A DNA stretch of 64,000 nt from the NCBI GenBank assembly GCA_021794275.1, contig JAJYRD010000060.1:1-64000 (forward strand), written 5' to 3'. Position numbers and translations under genes: made by a program. Source of the stretch: Pseudomonadota bacterium. Lineage in GTDB: Bacteria; Pseudomonadota; Gammaproteobacteria; Acidiferrobacterales; Acidiferrobacteraceae. Within the stretch, counting starts at the first letter, position 1. Each line of letters begins with the position of its first letter. The notes under the pieces are model-generated. The model worked only from the letters and a program-made list of their open reading frames with translations. It had not been told where the DNA came from and made no database searches. Below, piece after piece: positions 764 through 11,888 of this stretch.

Positions 764-1375
764 ATGAAGGCGGCGCTTCCGCAACACATAGGCTTTATCC
801 CGGATGGCAACAGGCGGTGGGCAGAGGAAAAGGGCTTTCCTCGCGAGCAGGGCTATGCCTTTGGAGTGGAGCCTGGGATCCGCCTGTTCGAGCATTGTCG
901 GGATATGGGCATACCCGAGATCTCGATTTACGGGTTCACGCGCGATAACACCAAAAGGCCTGCGGCACAGAAGATCGCCTTCGCTAAGGCGTGTGTCCGG
1001 TTCGCGGAGGAACTGACCGGACGGGGGGCGGCGTTGCTTGTAGTGGGCGACGAGGATTCCCAGGTATTTCCTAGAGAGCTGCGTATCTATAGAGAACGTC
1101 GCGGGGCCGGGATGAAGGTGAATCTTCTCGTCAATTACGGGTGGGACTGGGATATAGAGGGTCTGCGCCACGGGAGGCTGCGCTCAAGCGACGTCTCGCG
1201 CATCGATCTTGTCGTCCGGTGGGGGGGAGGCCGCCGCTTGAGCGGTTTCTTGCCGATCCAGTCGGTTTATGCCGATTTCTTCATCGTGGACGACTACTGG
1301 CCAGACTTCCAGATGGCGCAGTTCGAGGCCGCTCTACGCTGGTTTCGCATCCAGGACCGTACTCTGGGAGGGTGA
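764..1375 (+). CDS. Short, divergent cis-prenyltransferase (UppS family)
   Basis: Family members build polyprenyl diphosphates from isopentenyl diphosphate. The N-terminus HIGFIPDGNRRWA (8-20) matches the UppS signature with its catalytic Asp (D14), and the C-terminal half keeps the RxxxxxRLSxFL and YWPDF pattern. At 203 residues it is about 50 shorter than normal UppS: the helical segment between NYG (about 124-126) and IDLVVR (147-152) is roughly 25-30 residues short. Other changes are GGE to GGG at 154-156, Trp to Thr in DNTKRP (61-66), and Glu to Asp in YAD (171). The ATG at 764 has a GAGGG site just upstream. It is probably an accessory enzyme rather than the housekeeping undecaprenyl synthase, which normally sits beside cdsA, dxr and frr. 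Confidence 0.72.
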   Translation: MKAALPQHIGFIPDGNRRWAEEKGFPREQGYAFGVEPGIRLFEHCRDMGIPEISIYGFTRDNTKRPAAQKIAFAKACVRFAEELTGRGAALLVVGDEDSQVFPRELRIYRERRGAGMKVNLLVNYGWDWDIEGLRHGRLRSSDVSRIDLVVRWGGGRRLSGFLPIQSVYADFFIVDDYWPDFQMAQFEAALRWFRIQDRTLGG

Positions 1376-4336: not shown

Positions 4337-5416
4337 ATGACATATGTTGAATCGTTCGAGCGCGCGATTCACCAGCGGCTCCGGGGGGCGCACGTGACGG
4401 ACACACTGCTCAAAACGCACGACGACCCACCCCCTTTGCGCGGCTGTAAAGGACGCATAGGCGTCTTCCGGGCGCTGAATCTCGGCGACATGTTATGCGC
4501 CATACCCGCGCTACGGGCCCTGCGCGCAGCCTCCCCGGAGGCCCACATCACGGTCATTGGTCTGCCATGGGCGTATGAGCTCATCGCACGCTATCGCCAT
4601 TACGTGGATGATTTTCTCCCGTTTCCTGGTCATCCGCAATTGCCGGAGACCCACGTGGGTCGCGCAGACTACGAGAGCTTTCGGAACAGTCTCCCGGACG
4701 ACTTTGATTGGTTGATACAGCTTCACGGCGACGGCCGACTCACCAACGGAATATTGTCGGAGTGGCCCACGAGGCACTTGGCCGGTTTCGTCCGGGCCGG
4801 TATCCGCAATGATGGCTATTTCCTGCCTTACCCCTCGGGCCACGAGATCGATCGCTTGTTGGGGCTCATCCGCTGGCTCGGCGGCGACGGATCCTCCGAC
4901 CTCGAGTTTCCGCTCCACCCGGAGGACTTCGCCCAATTGAAGGCGGTGCCTGAGTTCGAGCACCTGCTCGACGCACCCTATGTGGTCGTTCACCCGGGAT
5001 CGCGAGATGCACAACGTCGTCTAGCGCCCGCGCTCTTCGAGGAGGCAGTGGATGTCCTTTCGGAGCGCACCCGCGTCGTGTTGACCGGCAGTGCGCAGGA
5101 GTGGGATTTGAATGCCCGAATCGCAGAATCGTGCGCGGGCGTCGTTAATGCCGCTGGGGCCACCTCGCTTGGCGCCCTCGGGGCCTTGATCGCAGGCGCG
5201 CGCTGTCTCGTGACCAACGATACTGGTCCTTCGCATCTGGGCGCAGCTCTCCACACGCCGAGCCTCGTGGTCGTCACGGGATCAGACCCCACCCGCTGGG
5301 CGCCCAAGGAACAACGACGCCACCGCGTGCTCGACGCGCGAAGTGGGCTTTCAAGGGAGCGGTTCCTGGCCGCGGTATTGGACCTTTGGGAACACGCCGG
5401 GAGGACCATTTGCTAG
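4337..5416 (+). CDS. Glycosyltransferase family 9 (heptosyltransferase-like)
   Basis: GT9 enzymes transfer heptose or related sugars from nucleotide donors onto cell-surface glycans. The N-terminal Rossmann start RIGVFRALNLGDMLCAIPALR lies at about 40-60 with the Asp of the LGD motif in place, and the C-terminal donor-site motif VTNDTGPSHLGAA is present at about residue 290. At 359 residues it has normal length. The start is uncertain: ATG 4337 has no clear ribosome site, GTG 4295 would add 14 residues, and GTG 4394 has a G-rich region before it. It opens a run of seven genes that overlap or nearly touch, so it is probably the first gene of a glycan operon. Confidence 0.82.
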   Translation: MTYVESFERAIHQRLRGAHVTDTLLKTHDDPPPLRGCKGRIGVFRALNLGDMLCAIPALRALRAASPEAHITVIGLPWAYELIARYRHYVDDFLPFPGHPQLPETHVGRADYESFRNSLPDDFDWLIQLHGDGRLTNGILSEWPTRHLAGFVRAGIRNDGYFLPYPSGHEIDRLLGLIRWLGGDGSSDLEFPLHPEDFAQLKAVPEFEHLLDAPYVVVHPGSRDAQRRLAPALFEEAVDVLSERTRVVLTGSAQEWDLNARIAESCAGVVNAAGATSLGALGALIAGARCLVTNDTGPSHLGAALHTPSLVVVTGSDPTRWAPKEQRRHRVLDARSGLSRERFLAAVLDLWEHAGRTIC

Positions 5417-6447
5417 ACGCGGGCCGCAGGATAAACCAGCCGCTACGTATCCTGACGTGGCATGTACATGGAAGCTATCTCTATTACCTGAGTCAGCTCC
5501 CACATCAATTTTACGTGCCCGTGAAGCCTGGACGACCGGAAGGGTATGGTGGACGTTCGCCCGGGCGGGCGTGGCCCGCCAATCTGCATGAGGTTGACGC
5601 TGACCGGGTTCGGCATTTGACGCTGGACGCAGTCATATTTCAGTCGCCCGGCCCCTATGAGCGCGACCAGTATGATCTCTTGACCGAGGCCCAACGCGCA
5701 CTTCCGTACATCTACCTGGAGCACGACCCGCCGAGAGGGCAGCCGACGGACACGCATCATCTCATAGACGATCCATCCGTCCTCTTGGTGCATGTGACGC
5801 ACTTCAATGCCCTGATGTGGGATAACGGCCGCACCCCTGTGCAAGTAATCTGTCACGGCGTCGCGGTGCCGCCTGGTGTCAGCTTCACAGGCGAGATCCC
5901 GCGCGGTCTCGTGGTGGTGAATGACTTGCGCAGCCGCGGCCGCAGGCTTGGCTTGGACATCTTTGAACGGGTCCGCAGCCAAATTCCGCTCGATCTCGTC
6001 GGTATGGGCTCCAGGCCGCTTGGGGGATTGGGGGAGATACCGCCTGAGCGGCTTGCCGCCTTCATGGCTCGATATCGGTTCTTCTTTAATCCGATCCGTT
6101 ATACGAGCCTCGGGCTTGCGGTCTGCGAAGCCATGGCGGTGGGGGTTCCCATCATAGGACTTGCAACGACCGAGATGCCGAGCGTCATCCGCAATGGCGT
6201 GTCGGGTTACATCTACACGGACGTAGAACAAATGATCCGGAGAATGCGTGAACTTCTGGCGCGACCAGATCGGGCGAAGGCCCTGGGGGAGGGGGCGAGA
6301 CGTTATGCATCCGCGCACTTCTCGCTCGCGCGGTTCGCCCGCGACTGGGAGCTGGCATTGGCCGCGGCGGCGCAACTGCGACCGTCGCGCAACGAGACCG
6401 TAAGGGCAGGAGGCCTGAATGAGCAAGCGGATCGCGCTTATAAGTGA
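5410..6447 (+). CDS. Glycosyltransferase family 4-like protein
   Basis: GT-B fold protein with a weak N-terminal acceptor half and a recognisable C-terminal GT4 half: the donor-site run TSLGLAVCEAMAVGVPIIG carries the E-x7-E-like spacing, followed by TTEMPSVIRNGVSGYIY. The central YLEHDPPRG motif is seen in related capsule-type transferases. I chose TTG at 5410, with GGAGGA 4 bases before it and overlap with the upstream stop (translational coupling); a TTG at 5386 would add eight residues. Length 345. The acceptor and sugar are not deducible. Confidence 0.75.
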   Translation: MLDAGRRINQPLRILTWHVHGSYLYYLSQLPHQFYVPVKPGRPEGYGGRSPGRAWPANLHEVDADRVRHLTLDAVIFQSPGPYERDQYDLLTEAQRALPYIYLEHDPPRGQPTDTHHLIDDPSVLLVHVTHFNALMWDNGRTPVQVICHGVAVPPGVSFTGEIPRGLVVVNDLRSRGRRLGLDIFERVRSQIPLDLVGMGSRPLGGLGEIPPERLAAFMARYRFFFNPIRYTSLGLAVCEAMAVGVPIIGLATTEMPSVIRNGVSGYIYTDVEQMIRRMRELLARPDRAKALGEGARRYASAHFSLARFARDWELALAAAAQLRPSRNETVRAGGLNEQADRAYK

Positions 6448-7729
6448 ACATGCTTCGCCTCTCGCAGTCCTCGGCGGCTGCGACTGTGGTGGCCAGAACG
6501 TCTACGTGGGCCAAGTCGCGCTGGGGCTTACCCGTTTGGGTTATCGAGTGGATGTCTTCACGCGCCGCGACGACATCGCGTTACCGGAGGTCGTCCAGTG
6601 GGCGCCGGGGGCTCGCGTCATACACGTCCCCGCGGGACCGGCGCGATCGGTCCGCAAAGAAGAGCTATTGCCCTATATGGAGGATTTCGCGCGCTACATG
6701 GATTCGTGGCTCAGACAAGGCCGTGGACGCTACGATCTCGTGCATGCCAATTTTTTTATGTCTGGCATGGTCGCGCGTGAACTACGGGAACGATGGGGGT
6801 TGCCGTTCATCATAACCTTTCACGCGCTCGGTGCAGTGCGGCAGCTTCATCAGGGTGGAAGGGACGAGTTTCCCAGAGAACGTAACCTGATTGAATCGGA
6901 GATAGTGGCCGACGCTGACGCGATCTTGGCTGAGTGCCCGCAAGACGCCAAGGACCTGGGGTCCTTCTACGGCGCATCCCCACAGAAGTTGCGAATCGTC
7001 CCCTGCGGCTTCGATCCCGCCCAGTTTTCCCCGATGGATAAGGCCGTAGCGCGCCACGAAATAGGGGTGGCGGACAAGGACCCCTTGTTCGTGCATGTCG
7101 GTCGAATGGTGCCGCGCAAAGGGGTCGATACCATCATCGAGGCCATTGCGCGCCTAAGGGATCAGCATGGCCTGGATGCCCGGCTCTTGATCGTGGGAGG
7201 GGAGACGGATCGCCCAGACGCGCGATCGACTCCGGAGATTGGGCGCCTGAAGGAGATTGCGGTAAAGCTCGCGGTTGATGATCGGGTCATGTTTGCAGGC
7301 CGACGCAGGCCTGATCAATTGCGTCCCTATTACTGCGCCGCCGATCTCTTCATCACGACCCCATGGTACGAGCCGTTTGGCATCACGCCCCTCGAGGCCA
7401 TGGCGTGCGCGACCCCGGTCATAGGCTCGGCGGTCGGTGGCATCAAGTATACGGTGCGCCACAAAGAGACCGGATATCTCGTTCCGCCGCGCAACGCCGC
7501 CGCAGTCGCGCTCTACATGGCGCATGCCTTGCGCGAGCCCGAGGAGATCGAATCCCTGCGGCAGCGCGCGTTTGCCCGGGCCACTTCGTCGTTCACGTGG
7601 CAGAAGGTGTCCCGCATGGTAAGCGAGGTCTATCAGGAGGTTATGGCTCGCGTCGACACCTCGCGTAGCGGCGTGATCGCGGCATTGCGGGTCGAGGCAT
7701 CTGAATCGCCCCGTTCATTTCTAAATTAA
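6419..7729 (+). CDS. Glycosyltransferase family 4, sucrose-synthase-like type
   Basis: Retaining GT4 enzyme. The N-terminus ISEHASPLAVLGGCDCGGQNVYV matches the branch that includes sucrose-phosphate synthase and MshA-like enzymes (usual form GGxDxGGQNVYV). The C-terminal donor site reads EPFGITPLEAMACATPVIG, with both glutamates of the E-x7-E motif, and HVGRMVPRKGVDTIIEA marks the domain junction. The length of 436 is normal. ATG 6419 lies inside the end of the previous gene, so the two are probably coupled. It is followed after 13 bases, across a strong AAAGGAGGAG site, by an SDR. Confidence 0.85.
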   Translation: MSKRIALISEHASPLAVLGGCDCGGQNVYVGQVALGLTRLGYRVDVFTRRDDIALPEVVQWAPGARVIHVPAGPARSVRKEELLPYMEDFARYMDSWLRQGRGRYDLVHANFFMSGMVARELRERWGLPFIITFHALGAVRQLHQGGRDEFPRERNLIESEIVADADAILAECPQDAKDLGSFYGASPQKLRIVPCGFDPAQFSPMDKAVARHEIGVADKDPLFVHVGRMVPRKGVDTIIEAIARLRDQHGLDARLLIVGGETDRPDARSTPEIGRLKEIAVKLAVDDRVMFAGRRRPDQLRPYYCAADLFITTPWYEPFGITPLEAMACATPVIGSAVGGIKYTVRHKETGYLVPPRNAAAVALYMAHALREPEEIESLRQRAFARATSSFTWQKVSRMVSEVYQEVMARVDTSRSGVIAALRVEASESPRSFLN

Positions 7730-7742
7730 AGGAGGAGAGTTC

Positions 7743-8531
7743 ATGAGTGATGCTCTGGCCCGCGCCGAAAACATGGGAAGTGGAAAAAGAAAAGGCGACC
7801 AACGCCCGGGACCTCTAGCCGGGCAGATTGCGCTCGTCACAGGCGGCGCGCAGGGCCTGGGCGCGGCCATCTGCCGGAACTTAAGCCAAGCGGGCGCGAC
7901 CGTTATCGCTGGAGACCTCTTGGAAAGTAAGGCGCAATCCCTGGCGCAGGCCTTGTCCGCCGAGGGATGCGTGGTGGAGCCCAGGCGTCTCGATGTGGCC
8001 GACCAGAATTCGGTCGCGGATACGTTCCAAGACATCGTCGCCCGTCATGGCCGGTGCGACATCCTGGTGAACAATGCCGGAACGGACCTTACAGTGTCGG
8101 TGGAGGATATGCCCATCGAGCAATGGCGCCGCATCGTCGACGTCAACCTGACCGGGCCGTTCCTCGCTGCCCGGGCGGCTTTGCCTCACATGCGCAAACA
8201 AGGTGGTGGATCCATCGTGAACATCGTCTCGACCGCCGCCAAGCGCGCGTGGCCGAACGCGAGCGCCTATCACGCGAGCAAGTGGGGCCTTCTGGGCTTG
8301 AGCCATGCGCTCCACGTCGAGGGCCGTCCGCTTGGGATCAAGGTCACCGCGGTCATCTCCGGGGGCTTGCGCACACCTTTTCTTCTCGACCGGTTTCCGG
8401 ATATCGATCAATCGACCTTGCAGGATCCCGCCAATGTCGCGCAGACAGTGCGATTCGTGCTGACGCAGCCCGCGGAGACGGTCATCCCGGAGATCATGGT
8501 CCTTCCTATGCGGGAGACGTCATGGCCCTGA
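7743..8531 (+). CDS. SDR-family oxidoreductase of the heptose/glycan cluster
   Basis: Classical short-chain dehydrogenase of 262 residues. Visible motifs are the cofactor loop TGGAQGLGAA (about 33-42), NNAGTD, a catalytic Ser in VSTAAK, and the YHASK active site. Its place between two glycosyltransferases and a heptose bisphosphate phosphatase suggests that it oxidises or reduces a sugar nucleotide or glycan precursor, but the motifs alone do not give the substrate. About 30 polar residues precede the Rossmann fold. AAAGGAGGAG lies about 6 bases before the ATG. Confidence 0.85.
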   Translation: MSDALARAENMGSGKRKGDQRPGPLAGQIALVTGGAQGLGAAICRNLSQAGATVIAGDLLESKAQSLAQALSAEGCVVEPRRLDVADQNSVADTFQDIVARHGRCDILVNNAGTDLTVSVEDMPIEQWRRIVDVNLTGPFLAARAALPHMRKQGGGSIVNIVSTAAKRAWPNASAYHASKWGLLGLSHALHVEGRPLGIKVTAVISGGLRTPFLLDRFPDIDQSTLQDPANVAQTVRFVLTQPAETVIPEIMVLPMRETSWP

Positions 8532-9133
8532 TTCGCGACGCCGCCGTGTTTCTCGACAAGGACGGCACACTCATAGACGACGTGCCCTATAACGTGGACC
8601 CGGATCGTATACGCTTGGCCGCCGGGGTGCGGACCGGCCTGCGGCGGCTCCACGAAAGGGGTTTTCGTCTGGTCGTCGTGAGCAATCAAGGCGGCGTGGC
8701 GCGCGGCTACTTCACGGAAGAGGCGCTTACGAGCGTCGAAGATAGGCTGCGCGACCTGTTGCGCGCCTTCGGGGTCCCCTTGGCCGGCTTCTATTATTGC
8801 CCCCATGACCCCATGGGACGCGTGAAGAACTACGCCATCGCCTGCACCTGTCGCAAGCCGCGCCCCGGCCTCTTTCAGAGGGCTGCGCGCGACGGTCATT
8901 TCGACCTCACGCGATCCTGGTGTGTCGGGGATATCCTGGACGACGTGGAGGCCGGGCATGCCGCGGGCTGCCGCAGTGTCCTCATAGATAACGGCAACGA
9001 AACCAAGTGGCAGCTCTCGGACCGGCGCGTGCCCGACTACATAGCGCGTGACATCGACGAGGCGGCCGATTTCATCATCGATGCCTCCGGGCCAGGGCGC
9101 CCAGTACGTCCTCATTCGTTCGCGCGCTCATGA
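8522..9133 (+). CDS. gmhB: D-glycero-manno-heptose-1,7-bisphosphate 7-phosphatase (HAD family)
   Basis: GmhB removes the 7-phosphate of heptose bisphosphate during ADP- or GDP-heptose synthesis. HAD motif I is FLDKDGTL (D12 and D14), motif II VVSNQGGVARG, and the zinc loop characteristic of GmhB and HisB-N is seen as CPHDP, then CTCRKPRPG. Motif IV is VGDILDDVEAGHAAG. At 203 residues it is slightly longer than E. coli GmhB. The ATG at 8522 overlaps the SDR stop by 10 bases and its own stop overlaps the next GT9. No gmhA or hldE is in the window. Together with the GT9 genes it points to a heptose-containing glycan. Confidence 0.87.
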   Translation: MALIRDAAVFLDKDGTLIDDVPYNVDPDRIRLAAGVRTGLRRLHERGFRLVVVSNQGGVARGYFTEEALTSVEDRLRDLLRAFGVPLAGFYYCPHDPMGRVKNYAIACTCRKPRPGLFQRAARDGHFDLTRSWCVGDILDDVEAGHAAGCRSVLIDNGNETKWQLSDRRVPDYIARDIDEAADFIIDASGPGRPVRPHSFARS

Positions 9134-10206
9134 TGCGGCACGAATGGGAGGCTGCCCGCAGGGTGTTGGTGGTACGGCTCGACGGGATGGGCGATCTGCT
9201 CATGACCGGGCCCGCCATACGCGCCTTGAAGGGGGCCGCGCCTGGACGCGCCGTGACCGCGCTCGTGTCCCCGGCCGCTGCTGCGGCCGCGCGGCTCCTG
9301 CCCGGCGTGGACGACGTCATAGTCTACCGGGCACCGTGGATGAAAGGGGTCGAAGCCGACCCTGTCGCCGATCGCGCACTCATCGCGCAATTGCGGGCGC
9401 GGCAGTTCGACGCGGCGGTGATCTTCACGGTATTCAGTCAAAGCGCGTTGCCAGCGGCGCTACTCTGTCATCTGGCCGAGATCCCCCGCCGCGCGGCCCA
9501 TTGCCGCGAGAACCCCTATGCACTCTTGACGACATGGGTCAAGGAGAAGGAGCCAGAGCAAGGAATACGGCACGAAGTGGAGCGACAGTTAGGGCTCGTG
9601 GCAGAGCTTGGCGCAAGCGGCGGCGATAACAAGCTTGCGATCTCCCTGCCGGCGCCAGCGCGCGCATGGGGGGGCCAATACCGCACCGAGGGTCGGCCCT
9701 TGATCATAATCCACCCGGGGGCGTCAGCGCCCTCGCGGCGTTATCCGGAGGAATCCTATGCGACGGTGTTGCGGCTTCTTGAGCATGAGCTGGACGCCGC
9801 CTGCGTTTTGACCGGCACAGATAGCGAACGCGATCTCCTGTTGCGTATACGCAAGGCGGCCCGTAGCGGCGCCACCGTGGTCTGTGGAGCCTCCCTCGCG
9901 GAGCTTGCCGGTCTCCAGCAGTCCTCGGATGTCGTCGTCACCAATAATACGGGACCTGCGCATCTGGCGGCGGCGGTAGGTACGCCCGTAGTCGTGCTCT
10001 ACGCGCTCACAAACCCACAGCACGCGCCCTGGGCCGCGGCTTCGCGCGTGCTGTCGGCCGACGTTCCTTGTCGCAACTGCTTCAAGAGCGTCTGCCCGAC
10101 AGGACACCATCGCTGCCTGCGAGACGTGAGCCCCCGACAGGTCGTTGATGCCGCTACCGAACTCTTGCTGGACGGTTCGGGCCTCGCCCGCCGGGCCTTA
10201 TGCTGA
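9130..10206 (+). CDS. Glycosyltransferase family 9 (heptosyltransferase-like)
   Basis: Second GT9 of the cluster, 358 residues. The N-terminus VLVVRLDGMGDLLMTGPAIRAL carries the family GD motif, and the C-terminal half has HPGASAPSRRYP and VVTNNTGPAHLAAAVGTP, the donor-binding region. A Cys-rich patch near the C-terminus (CRNCFKSVCPTGHHRCL) is like that of several WaaF/WaaQ-type relatives. Its start overlaps the gmhB stop and its stop overlaps the carbamoyltransferase-like gene, so these three are translated in series. Confidence 0.85.
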   Translation: MMRHEWEAARRVLVVRLDGMGDLLMTGPAIRALKGAAPGRAVTALVSPAAAAAARLLPGVDDVIVYRAPWMKGVEADPVADRALIAQLRARQFDAAVIFTVFSQSALPAALLCHLAEIPRRAAHCRENPYALLTTWVKEKEPEQGIRHEVERQLGLVAELGASGGDNKLAISLPAPARAWGGQYRTEGRPLIIIHPGASAPSRRYPEESYATVLRLLEHELDAACVLTGTDSERDLLLRIRKAARSGATVVCGASLAELAGLQQSSDVVVTNNTGPAHLAAAVGTPVVVLYALTNPQHAPWAAASRVLSADVPCRNCFKSVCPTGHHRCLRDVSPRQVVDAATELLLDGSGLARRALC

Positions 10207-11888
10207 CACTTGGGATCTCGGGCGGTTTCCATGCGCCGGCCGCGACCTTGATCGAAGACGGGCGTATCGTCGCCGCGCTGGAGGCGGGGACTTGCGAATC
10301 CGATGCGATAGTAGGGTCGGCGCATAGGCCTGGGCGTGTGTGGCCGACCCAATGTGTCACGTGGTGCCTGGAACGGCGGGGCGCGAGCCTGTCCGATGTC
10401 GACCACATCGCCTTTGCGTGGGATCCTGCCTTGATCACCGATGCCCACAAAGGGCCACCTGCCTCAGCGCAGGAAGCTGCGGAGGACAGTGACGAGCGTG
10501 AGCCACTGTGGGCCACGCTGCCGCTCTGCGAGCTTGAATGGGTGCGTCGTGCCATCGGCAAGCGAGAGGCAGTAGCCGGCGTCCGTGCGGCGGGACAGCC
10601 GCAGTGGCATTATGTACCGCATCAGTTATCGCATATCGCTGCCGCTTTCCTGACTTCACCATTCGAAGAGTCGGCGATCCTTTGCATCAATGCCCGCGGC
10701 GAACGTTCGGGAACGAGCTACGCGATCGGTCAAGGAGCGACCATCGAAACCCTGGGCGAGGCCGAAGCAGCACAGTCCTTGGGGCTCCTGTTTGAACGGC
10801 TGACCACGCATCTCGGCTTTTCGCCCGGCACGGGAGAAGACAAGGTCGTAGCGCTCGCGGCGCGTGGCAAGCCGCGCTTGCGTGAGGCCTTTTCACGCAT
10901 CGTCACGCGCGGGCAGGGCCGTGATTATCAGGTGTCCAACGAGAGCCTGACCGATCTTCTGGGCCCAGCGCGGATACCAGGAACGATGATCGAGACGCGT
11001 CACGAAGACATCGCCTGCTCGTGGCAGGAATGCCTGGCGGAGACCGTGGTCGGCCTCGCCGACTGGCTTAAACGAGAAACGCGGGCCCGTCACCTGACGG
11101 CCGCCGGCGGCGTCTTTCGTAATGTCGTATTGAACAGCGCCCTGCGCGATTCGGGACTATTCGAGCAATCCTGGATCTCGCCCGTCGCTGGCGCCCCAGG
11201 CACGGCGCTTGGCGCCGCCTTATGGCTCGACCAGACCCTGCGCGCCCCGAGCAAGCGTGAATCCGTGCGGGATACCTGCTGGGGGCCGCGCTTTTCGGCC
11301 GAGGAGATAGAAACTGTGCTCGTGCGCGCGCGCCTTCCGTACGGGCGGCCGCCGGCCATGACCGTCGCCGTCGCCGCGCGCCTTGCAAGCGGCAAGACGG
11401 TGGGATGGTTTCAGGGAGCGATGGAGTTCGGATCCCAGGCTCTGGGCAGCCGACTCATCCTCGCCGCGCCCTCGGCGCCTAGCATGGCTGAAACCTTGAA
11501 CGACCTCGCGGGACGCGACCGCTTCGAACCCGTGGCGTGCGCCGTACCATCCGATGTCGCCACGGATTGGTTTGAAGACACGAGATCGGCGAGCTTCCGC
11601 GCCTTTCTGGCGCGGGTACGCAGTGATAAGCGCCCGCGTATCCCAGCCGCCGTCCACATAGACGGGACCGCCCGCGTGCAGACGGTGGAGCGCACCGTTC
11701 AACCGCTCTTCCATGATGCCCTGGAGGCCTTCGGGGCCCTGACTGGCATACCGGTCCTTTTGAGCGCGGACTTCACCACGCGCCTCGGTGCGCGTATCCG
11801 GACACCGGTGGACGCCATCGAGGCCTTCGCAAGCGGACCTCTGGACGCCCTGGCAATAGGCCCCTTCTTGCTCGAAAAGGGCCGCTGA
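10200..11888 (+). CDS. Carbamoyltransferase-like protein (NodU/TobZ family) with altered catalytic residues
   Basis: The 562 residues carry both halves of the family: an N-terminal Kae1-like domain (MLTLGISGGF start, HQLSH at 141-145, AAGGVFRNVVLNSAL at 301-315) and a C-terminal YrdC-like domain (GAMEFGSQALGSR at 406-418, HIDGTARVQTV at 486-496). Active members move a carbamoyl group from carbamoyl phosphate via carbamoyl-adenylate to a sugar or antibiotic. Here several conserved positions differ: usual DGxGE reads NARGE (164-168), usual GDxGxxxGAA reads GAPGTALGAA (331-340), usual FGPRALGxRS reads FGSQALGSRL, and usual NTSFN reads SADFT (522-526). The first two changes remove Asp residues that bind metal in the family. 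It ends the glycan operon. It may be a new-specificity or non-catalytic relative. Confidence 0.8.
   Translation: MLTLGISGGFHAPAATLIEDGRIVAALEAGTCESDAIVGSAHRPGRVWPTQCVTWCLERRGASLSDVDHIAFAWDPALITDAHKGPPASAQEAAEDSDEREPLWATLPLCELEWVRRAIGKREAVAGVRAAGQPQWHYVPHQLSHIAAAFLTSPFEESAILCINARGERSGTSYAIGQGATIETLGEAEAAQSLGLLFERLTTHLGFSPGTGEDKVVALAARGKPRLREAFSRIVTRGQGRDYQVSNESLTDLLGPARIPGTMIETRHEDIACSWQECLAETVVGLADWLKRETRARHLTAAGGVFRNVVLNSALRDSGLFEQSWISPVAGAPGTALGAALWLDQTLRAPSKRESVRDTCWGPRFSAEEIETVLVRARLPYGRPPAMTVAVAARLASGKTVGWFQGAMEFGSQALGSRLILAAPSAPSMAETLNDLAGRDRFEPVACAVPSDVATDWFEDTRSASFRAFLARVRSDKRPRIPAAVHIDGTARVQTVERTVQPLFHDALEAFGALTGIPVLLSADFTTRLGARIRTPVDAIEAFASGPLDALAIGPFLLEKGR

Follow-up and report, generated by a model that had tools for sequence, protein, structure and literature searches.

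Two-domain O-carbamoyltransferases of the TobZ/NodU/CmcH type have deposited structures (PDB 3ven-3vf4; GdmN 7vzn and others), among them the TobZ variants K443A, S530A, and H14N, which according to their PDB titles were crystallized and which alter active-site positions. The GdmN variant H27N, equivalent to TobZ H14N, is inactive (PMC9633730). In Pseudomonas, a NodU-type carbamoyltransferase and heptosyltransferases are encoded in one region: the 7-O-carbamoyl group on the lipopolysaccharide (LPS) core heptose of P. aeruginosa is attributed to the putative carbamoyltransferase WapO (PA5005), encoded in the LPS core cluster (PMC8005017). Here, we analyzed a seven-gene operon in a 64,000-nucleotide stretch of contig JAJYRD010000060.1 (assembly GCA_021794275.1, Acidiferrobacteraceae), referred to below as the window. 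The operon shares a GmhB-type phosphatase and GT9 enzymes with LPS inner-core loci (gmhA/hldE/gmhB/hldD/waaC/waaF) and a carbamoyltransferase-like gene, called carb here, with the Pseudomonas system. Unlike the latter, it is separate from the LPS genes of its host, its GT4 and SDR genes differ, and carb is stripped of catalytic residues. We somewhat favor the reading that the operon is the reduced form, within its genus, of a secondary heptose-glycan locus separate from LPS, ending in a former carbamoyltransferase that would be non-catalytic and yet maintained by selection.

The seven genes are complete open reading frames (ORFs) on the forward strand at positions 4337 to 11888 of the window. 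The distances at successive junctions are -7, -29, +13, -10, -4, and -7 bases, such that five junctions overlap and the single gap, of 13 bases, lies between GT4b and the SDR gene. An initial annotation, made from the letters of the window, had described seven overlapping or nearly touching genes of these families; the compact arrangement is as described, and the family names were upheld by profile comparison. The genes are as follows.

4337..5416, + strand: GT9a, glycosyltransferase family 9, heptosyltransferase-like (PF01075, 71 bits; GDML and NDTGPSH motifs)
5410..6447, + strand: GT4a, family 4 glycosyltransferase of a distinctive subgroup (LTWHVHGxYLYYLSQ; PF13692/PF00534)
6419..7729, + strand: GT4b, family 4 glycosyltransferase related to MshA/sucrose-phosphate-synthase-type enzymes (PF00534, 134 bits)
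7743..8531, + strand: SDR oxidoreductase (PF00106, 180 bits; GGAQGLG and S...YHASK)
8522..9133, + strand: GmhB-like HAD phosphatase (HAD-IIIA; heptose-bisphosphatase paralogue; NF006506, 143.6 bits)
9130..10206, + strand: GT9b, glycosyltransferase family 9 (PF01075, 106 bits)
10200..11888, + strand: carb, carbamoyltransferase-like, without catalytic residues (PF02543, 142.7 bits, N domain; PF16861, 152.6 bits, C domain)

The carb protein retains the full-length fold of the family, with an N-terminal Kae1-like and a C-terminal YrdC-like domain. The top PDB match of its AlphaFold2 model (predicted TM score, 0.78; low-confidence loops at residues 30-46 and 77-131) is TobZ, with a TM score of 0.81. 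The HxxxH and catalytic-base histidines are kept (H11, H141, and H145, corresponding to TobZ H14, H114, and H118), as is R492 (TobZ R498). In contrast, substitutions affect the metal-ligand Asp, the Arg and Lys residues for ATP and carbamoyl phosphate, and the NTSFN loop, with A332 for D338, Q413 for R418, A437 for K443, E443 for R449, and SADFT in place of NTSFN around TobZ S530 (N522S/T523A/S524D); D164N also differs. In the TobZ structures, D338, R418, and R449 serve the binding of metal, ATP, and carbamoyl phosphate. The same losses recur in five species (the window and genomes G003, G005, G007, and G009): both metal-site histidines are kept and D338 is Ala in 5/5, R418 is Gln or Glu, K443 is Ala or Thr, R449 is Glu, and S530 is Asp. 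Other members (L004/G011 and G008) have lost different residues of carb. Outside the genus, 30 or more homologues keep these residues, which are intact in nearly all sequences compared. Misalignment as a cause of the apparent loss was ruled out, since the index offset to TobZ, the reference used, is uniform and the motif neighbors are conserved. In a FastTree phylogeny, the carb proteins of the genus form one clade with a support of 1.0 on a long stem. Probably, carb now encodes a pseudo-carbamoyltransferase, and the heptose-glycan pathway to which it belongs is being trimmed within the genus.

Loss of these residues coincides with signs of purifying selection. In the five species, carb is an intact ORF with no internal stops, and pairwise ratios of nonsynonymous to synonymous substitution (dN/dS) are 0.15 to 0.20, well below 1. 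The YrdC-like (ATP-binding) domain has a dN/dS of 0.10 to 0.135 versus 0.17 to 0.23 for the Kae1-like domain; the more constrained domain is the one that lost the ATP/carbamoyl-phosphate residues. At 33 positions that are invariant in seven outgroup orthologues, all five species share one new residue. Overall, carb keeps 62% of outgroup-invariant positions, compared to 85 to 98% for the other six proteins of the operon. Judged by these patterns, carb is not simply a pseudogene.

The gene set recurs, mostly in the same order, in other species at 35 to 94% identity and with conserved flanks; the cluster is therefore not a chance assembly. In loci of Burkholderiales, Nitrospira, and Actinomycetota (L005, L007, L008, L117, L118, L119, L154, and L155), genes for GT4b, an SDR or epimerase, GmhB, GT9b, carb, GT9a, and GT4a adjoin, at 35 to 60% identity to those of the host. 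These loci differ in that their carbamoyltransferase has an intact active site, most have an extra GT2, and some have their own GmhA and HldE or HldA/HldC. A genome of the same order but another family (G028) has the full locus, in which GT9, GT9, GT2, GT2, and HldE are divergent from GT4b, SDR, GmhB, GT9b, carb, GT2, radical SAM, GT9a, and GT4a. In Variovorax the order is HldC, GmhB, carb, GT2, GT4a, HldA, GmhA, GT9a, GT9b, and GT4b. The same set plus GT2 is found in Alcaligenaceae, Burkholderia multivorans, Paraburkholderia, and Cupriavidus; in most of these, genes for a UDP-glucuronate decarboxylase and a PIG-L deacetylase are close by. A Streptomyces plasmid and Nonomuraea combine the set with SIS (GmhA-like), HldE, and epimerase genes; an Arthrobacter example has it without carb, and a recognizable version is present in Nitrospira. 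To our knowledge, Actinomycetota such as Streptomyces and Nonomuraea have no LPS, and the gene set therefore does not need LPS. Close orthologues of GT4a (profile search, E ≤ 1e-60) were detected in only 4/398 Pseudomonadota genomes, which marks the locus as uncommon, and no description of the combined gene set was found in the open-licence literature.

The surroundings of these loci vary. The Burkholderia (L117) and Paraburkholderia (L118) versions lie among stress-type genes (BON domain, DUF892, DUF4142, manganese catalase, and phasin), and the Streptomyces version lies among GAF/ANTAR, STAS, and CsbD genes. A link to the Burkholderia low-oxygen (lxa) locus, raised by the stress-gene surroundings, was dropped without a comparison of gene content; strain H111 is reported to lack lxa.

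Heptose genes of the LPS type are present elsewhere in the host genome, a 2.68-Mb draft that is 92.7% complete. HldA (394 bits, above cut-off) is on contig C18, GmhA and HldC are on C80, and WaaA is on C67 with GT9 genes, with many further GT9 genes on C35, C26, and C34. A second GmhB, distinct from the GmhB-like gene of the operon, is on C33 and occurs throughout the genus; the operon copy as the sole GmhB for LPS was ruled out on this ground. No second GmhA copy was found in the host genome. Several same-genus genomes that are 90 to 99% complete have no carb match and no GmhB of the operon type but retain the other GmhB, and the cluster is therefore accessory within the genus. The question raised by the initial annotation, whether LPS core genes lie elsewhere, is answered by these contigs; together with relatives that carry complete heptose-precursor genes, they support its proposal of a heptose-type glycan locus distinct from the LPS core.

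The initial annotation was right that gmhA and hldE are absent from the span, and a dedicated-looking HldE paralogue is found on contig C57 of the host, together with a GT9 (42% identical to GT9b) and a GT2 (L092, 7437-10781). Heptose-precursor genes lie inside the locus in G028 (HldE), Variovorax, Streptomyces, and Nonomuraea. The C57 genes, which lie directly downstream of rpoA-rplQ, correspond to the HldE-GT2 half of the G028 locus and are patchily present across the genus; in several sister genomes the HldE paralogue has stops or is fragmented. A further gene possibly belonging to the locus lies upstream of the operon in the window.

764..1375, + strand: second, short UppS-like cis-prenyltransferase, 203 amino acids (PF01255, 125 bits)

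Its product lacks about 40 residues of the family profile and is distinct from the canonical UppS on contig C2. The gene is 81 to 91% conserved where the cluster is intact and is broken in G004 and G011; across the genus, its state mirrors that of the glycan cluster. It seems to travel with the locus, and this shared fate suggests that it may be a lipid-carrier gene of the locus and that the product may be polyprenyl linked.

Within the genus, the locus lies between uppS'-dgt-prmC-DUF202 and an MFS gene-mctP. Members of a sister genus (G014 and G016) have just gt9a and gmhB left at this site. The SDR gene carries a deletion in G003, as do GT9a and GT9b in G007; these are draft genomes, in which single cases could reflect assembly error. 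The three deletions (L127, 6159-6542; L128, 1814-2482 and 6199-6897) are large and all in frame, and look as if downstream translation or shortened proteins were being retained. In G005, the MFS and carbamoyltransferase genes are separated by a transposase-like ORF (L121, 2124-3482). On comparison with G028, the host operon is best described as a reduced, genus-specific form of a larger locus. Comparison with other genomes, suggested by the initial annotation, shows that the gene set and for the most part its order recur. The view that the seven genes are complete in themselves and that the last one encodes an active carbamoyltransferase is not supported, since G028 has the larger locus and the last gene appears to have lost its active site. 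A storage oligosaccharide, also proposed initially as a product, found no support in the analysis.

GT9a keeps 71/82 outgroup-invariant residues and is without the C-terminal CxxC segment of its Burkholderiales/Variovorax orthologues. GT4a starts at a TTG codon with GGAGG ahead, and its orthologues are 48 to 56% identical in Burkholderiales and 39% in Streptomyces. Of outgroup invariants, GT4b keeps 88%, the SDR 88/90, and GT9b 97/102. The GmhB-like phosphatase is the most conserved (93 to 94% identity; dN/dS of about 0.06) and has the motifs DKDGT, SNQ, CPH...CTCRKP (a CxH...CxC zinc site), and GDxxxD. GmhB models are its best matches, yet its 143.6 bits fall below the equivalog cut-off of 178; similarly, GT4b scores 287 bits against TIGR03449 (cut-off, 462) and GT9b scores 126.9 bits against TIGR02195 (cut-off, 134.6). 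Because of these scores below curated equivalog cut-offs, GmhB, both GT9s, and the GT4s are classed by profile as paralogous types rather than textbook LPS enzymes.

The GmhB and GT9 annotations could be those of the organism's ordinary LPS inner-core locus, but this is extremely improbable: the complete-looking second set on C80, C18, C33, C67, and C35 refutes it, and the same-genus genomes that retain their other GmhB without the cluster also speak against it. An accessory LPS modification, in which GT9a and GT9b would add extra heptose or outer-core residues to the LPS core, deserves more weight, although we consider it rather unlikely. In its favor, most GT9 proteins act as heptosyltransferases on LPS, the host is an LPS producer with WaaA and HldA, and WapO offers a precedent for heptose carbamoylation; against this, Streptomyces and Nonomuraea carry this gene set as well, and the locus is distant from the waa genes with no ligase or lipid A genes nearby. 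For carb itself, the operon could simply be decaying, with carb a functionless pseudogene in progress and the other genes following. The in-frame deletions in SDR, GT9a, and GT9b, the broken HldE and UppS paralogues, and the remnant in the sister genus (g2) fit this picture. It is nonetheless unlikely in view of full-length carb genes in five species with low dN/dS at dS values of up to 1.45, new residues that have become fixed, and six further genes in the window that are full length and nearly fully conserved at invariant sites. Alternatively, carb could still be an enzyme whose chemistry has changed, using another acyl or carbamoyl donor or acting as a hydrolase, for example. This would account for the kept histidines and R492 and for the stronger constraint on the YrdC-like domain, but it is very unlikely given the substitutions at D338, R418, K443, and R449 and in the NTSFN loop, after which no site for activating a donor is evident.

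Several observations also weigh against the reading of a selected non-catalytic protein in a secondary heptose-glycan locus. The HldE paralogue occurs without the cluster in G006 and G010, and the cluster occurs without the paralogue in G003. The losses in G003 and G007 mean that the locus may be disappearing. The dN/dS estimates come from a simple pairwise method, with dS near saturation in some pairs and >1 for the window versus G005. Finally, with the GT9 and GmhB assignments below equivalog cut-offs, heptose is a likely but not a certain substrate.

Overall, the operon most likely belongs to an accessory ADP-heptose glycan pathway whose carbamoylation step is off and whose former enzyme is kept as a non-catalytic part. 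In this pathway, an ADP-heptose would come from the GmhB paralogue acting together with the HldE paralogue on C57, the general GmhA/HldA/HldC enzymes, or both. A short glycan containing heptose would be assembled by the two GT9 and the two GT4 enzymes, possibly with the short UppS-like enzyme providing a polyprenyl carrier, and the SDR would oxidize or reduce a sugar. Ancestrally, this glycan was presumably carbamoylated by an enzyme of the NodU/TobZ type. In the genus, the sites of carb for metal, ATP, and carbamoyl phosphate would have been lost; the protein, non-catalytic but still selected, would now most likely serve within the pathway as a glycan- or enzyme-binding scaffold or as a regulator.

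More tentatively, carb may be a NodU/TobZ-type carbamoyltransferase that has become a conserved subunit or regulator without catalysis. It could then be the first pseudo-carbamoyltransferase to be described in the superfamily, and its setting would be an undescribed ADP-heptose glycan system that is independent of LPS and common to Gram-negative and Gram-positive bacteria. If so, very different bacteria would make an undescribed heptose glycan outside LPS, and carb would be a clean case of an ATP-using enzyme that lost its catalytic site yet remained under selection within the same pathway. The genus would then offer natural stages between the complete locus and its remnant, in which the order of loss and the roles of the genes can be tested.

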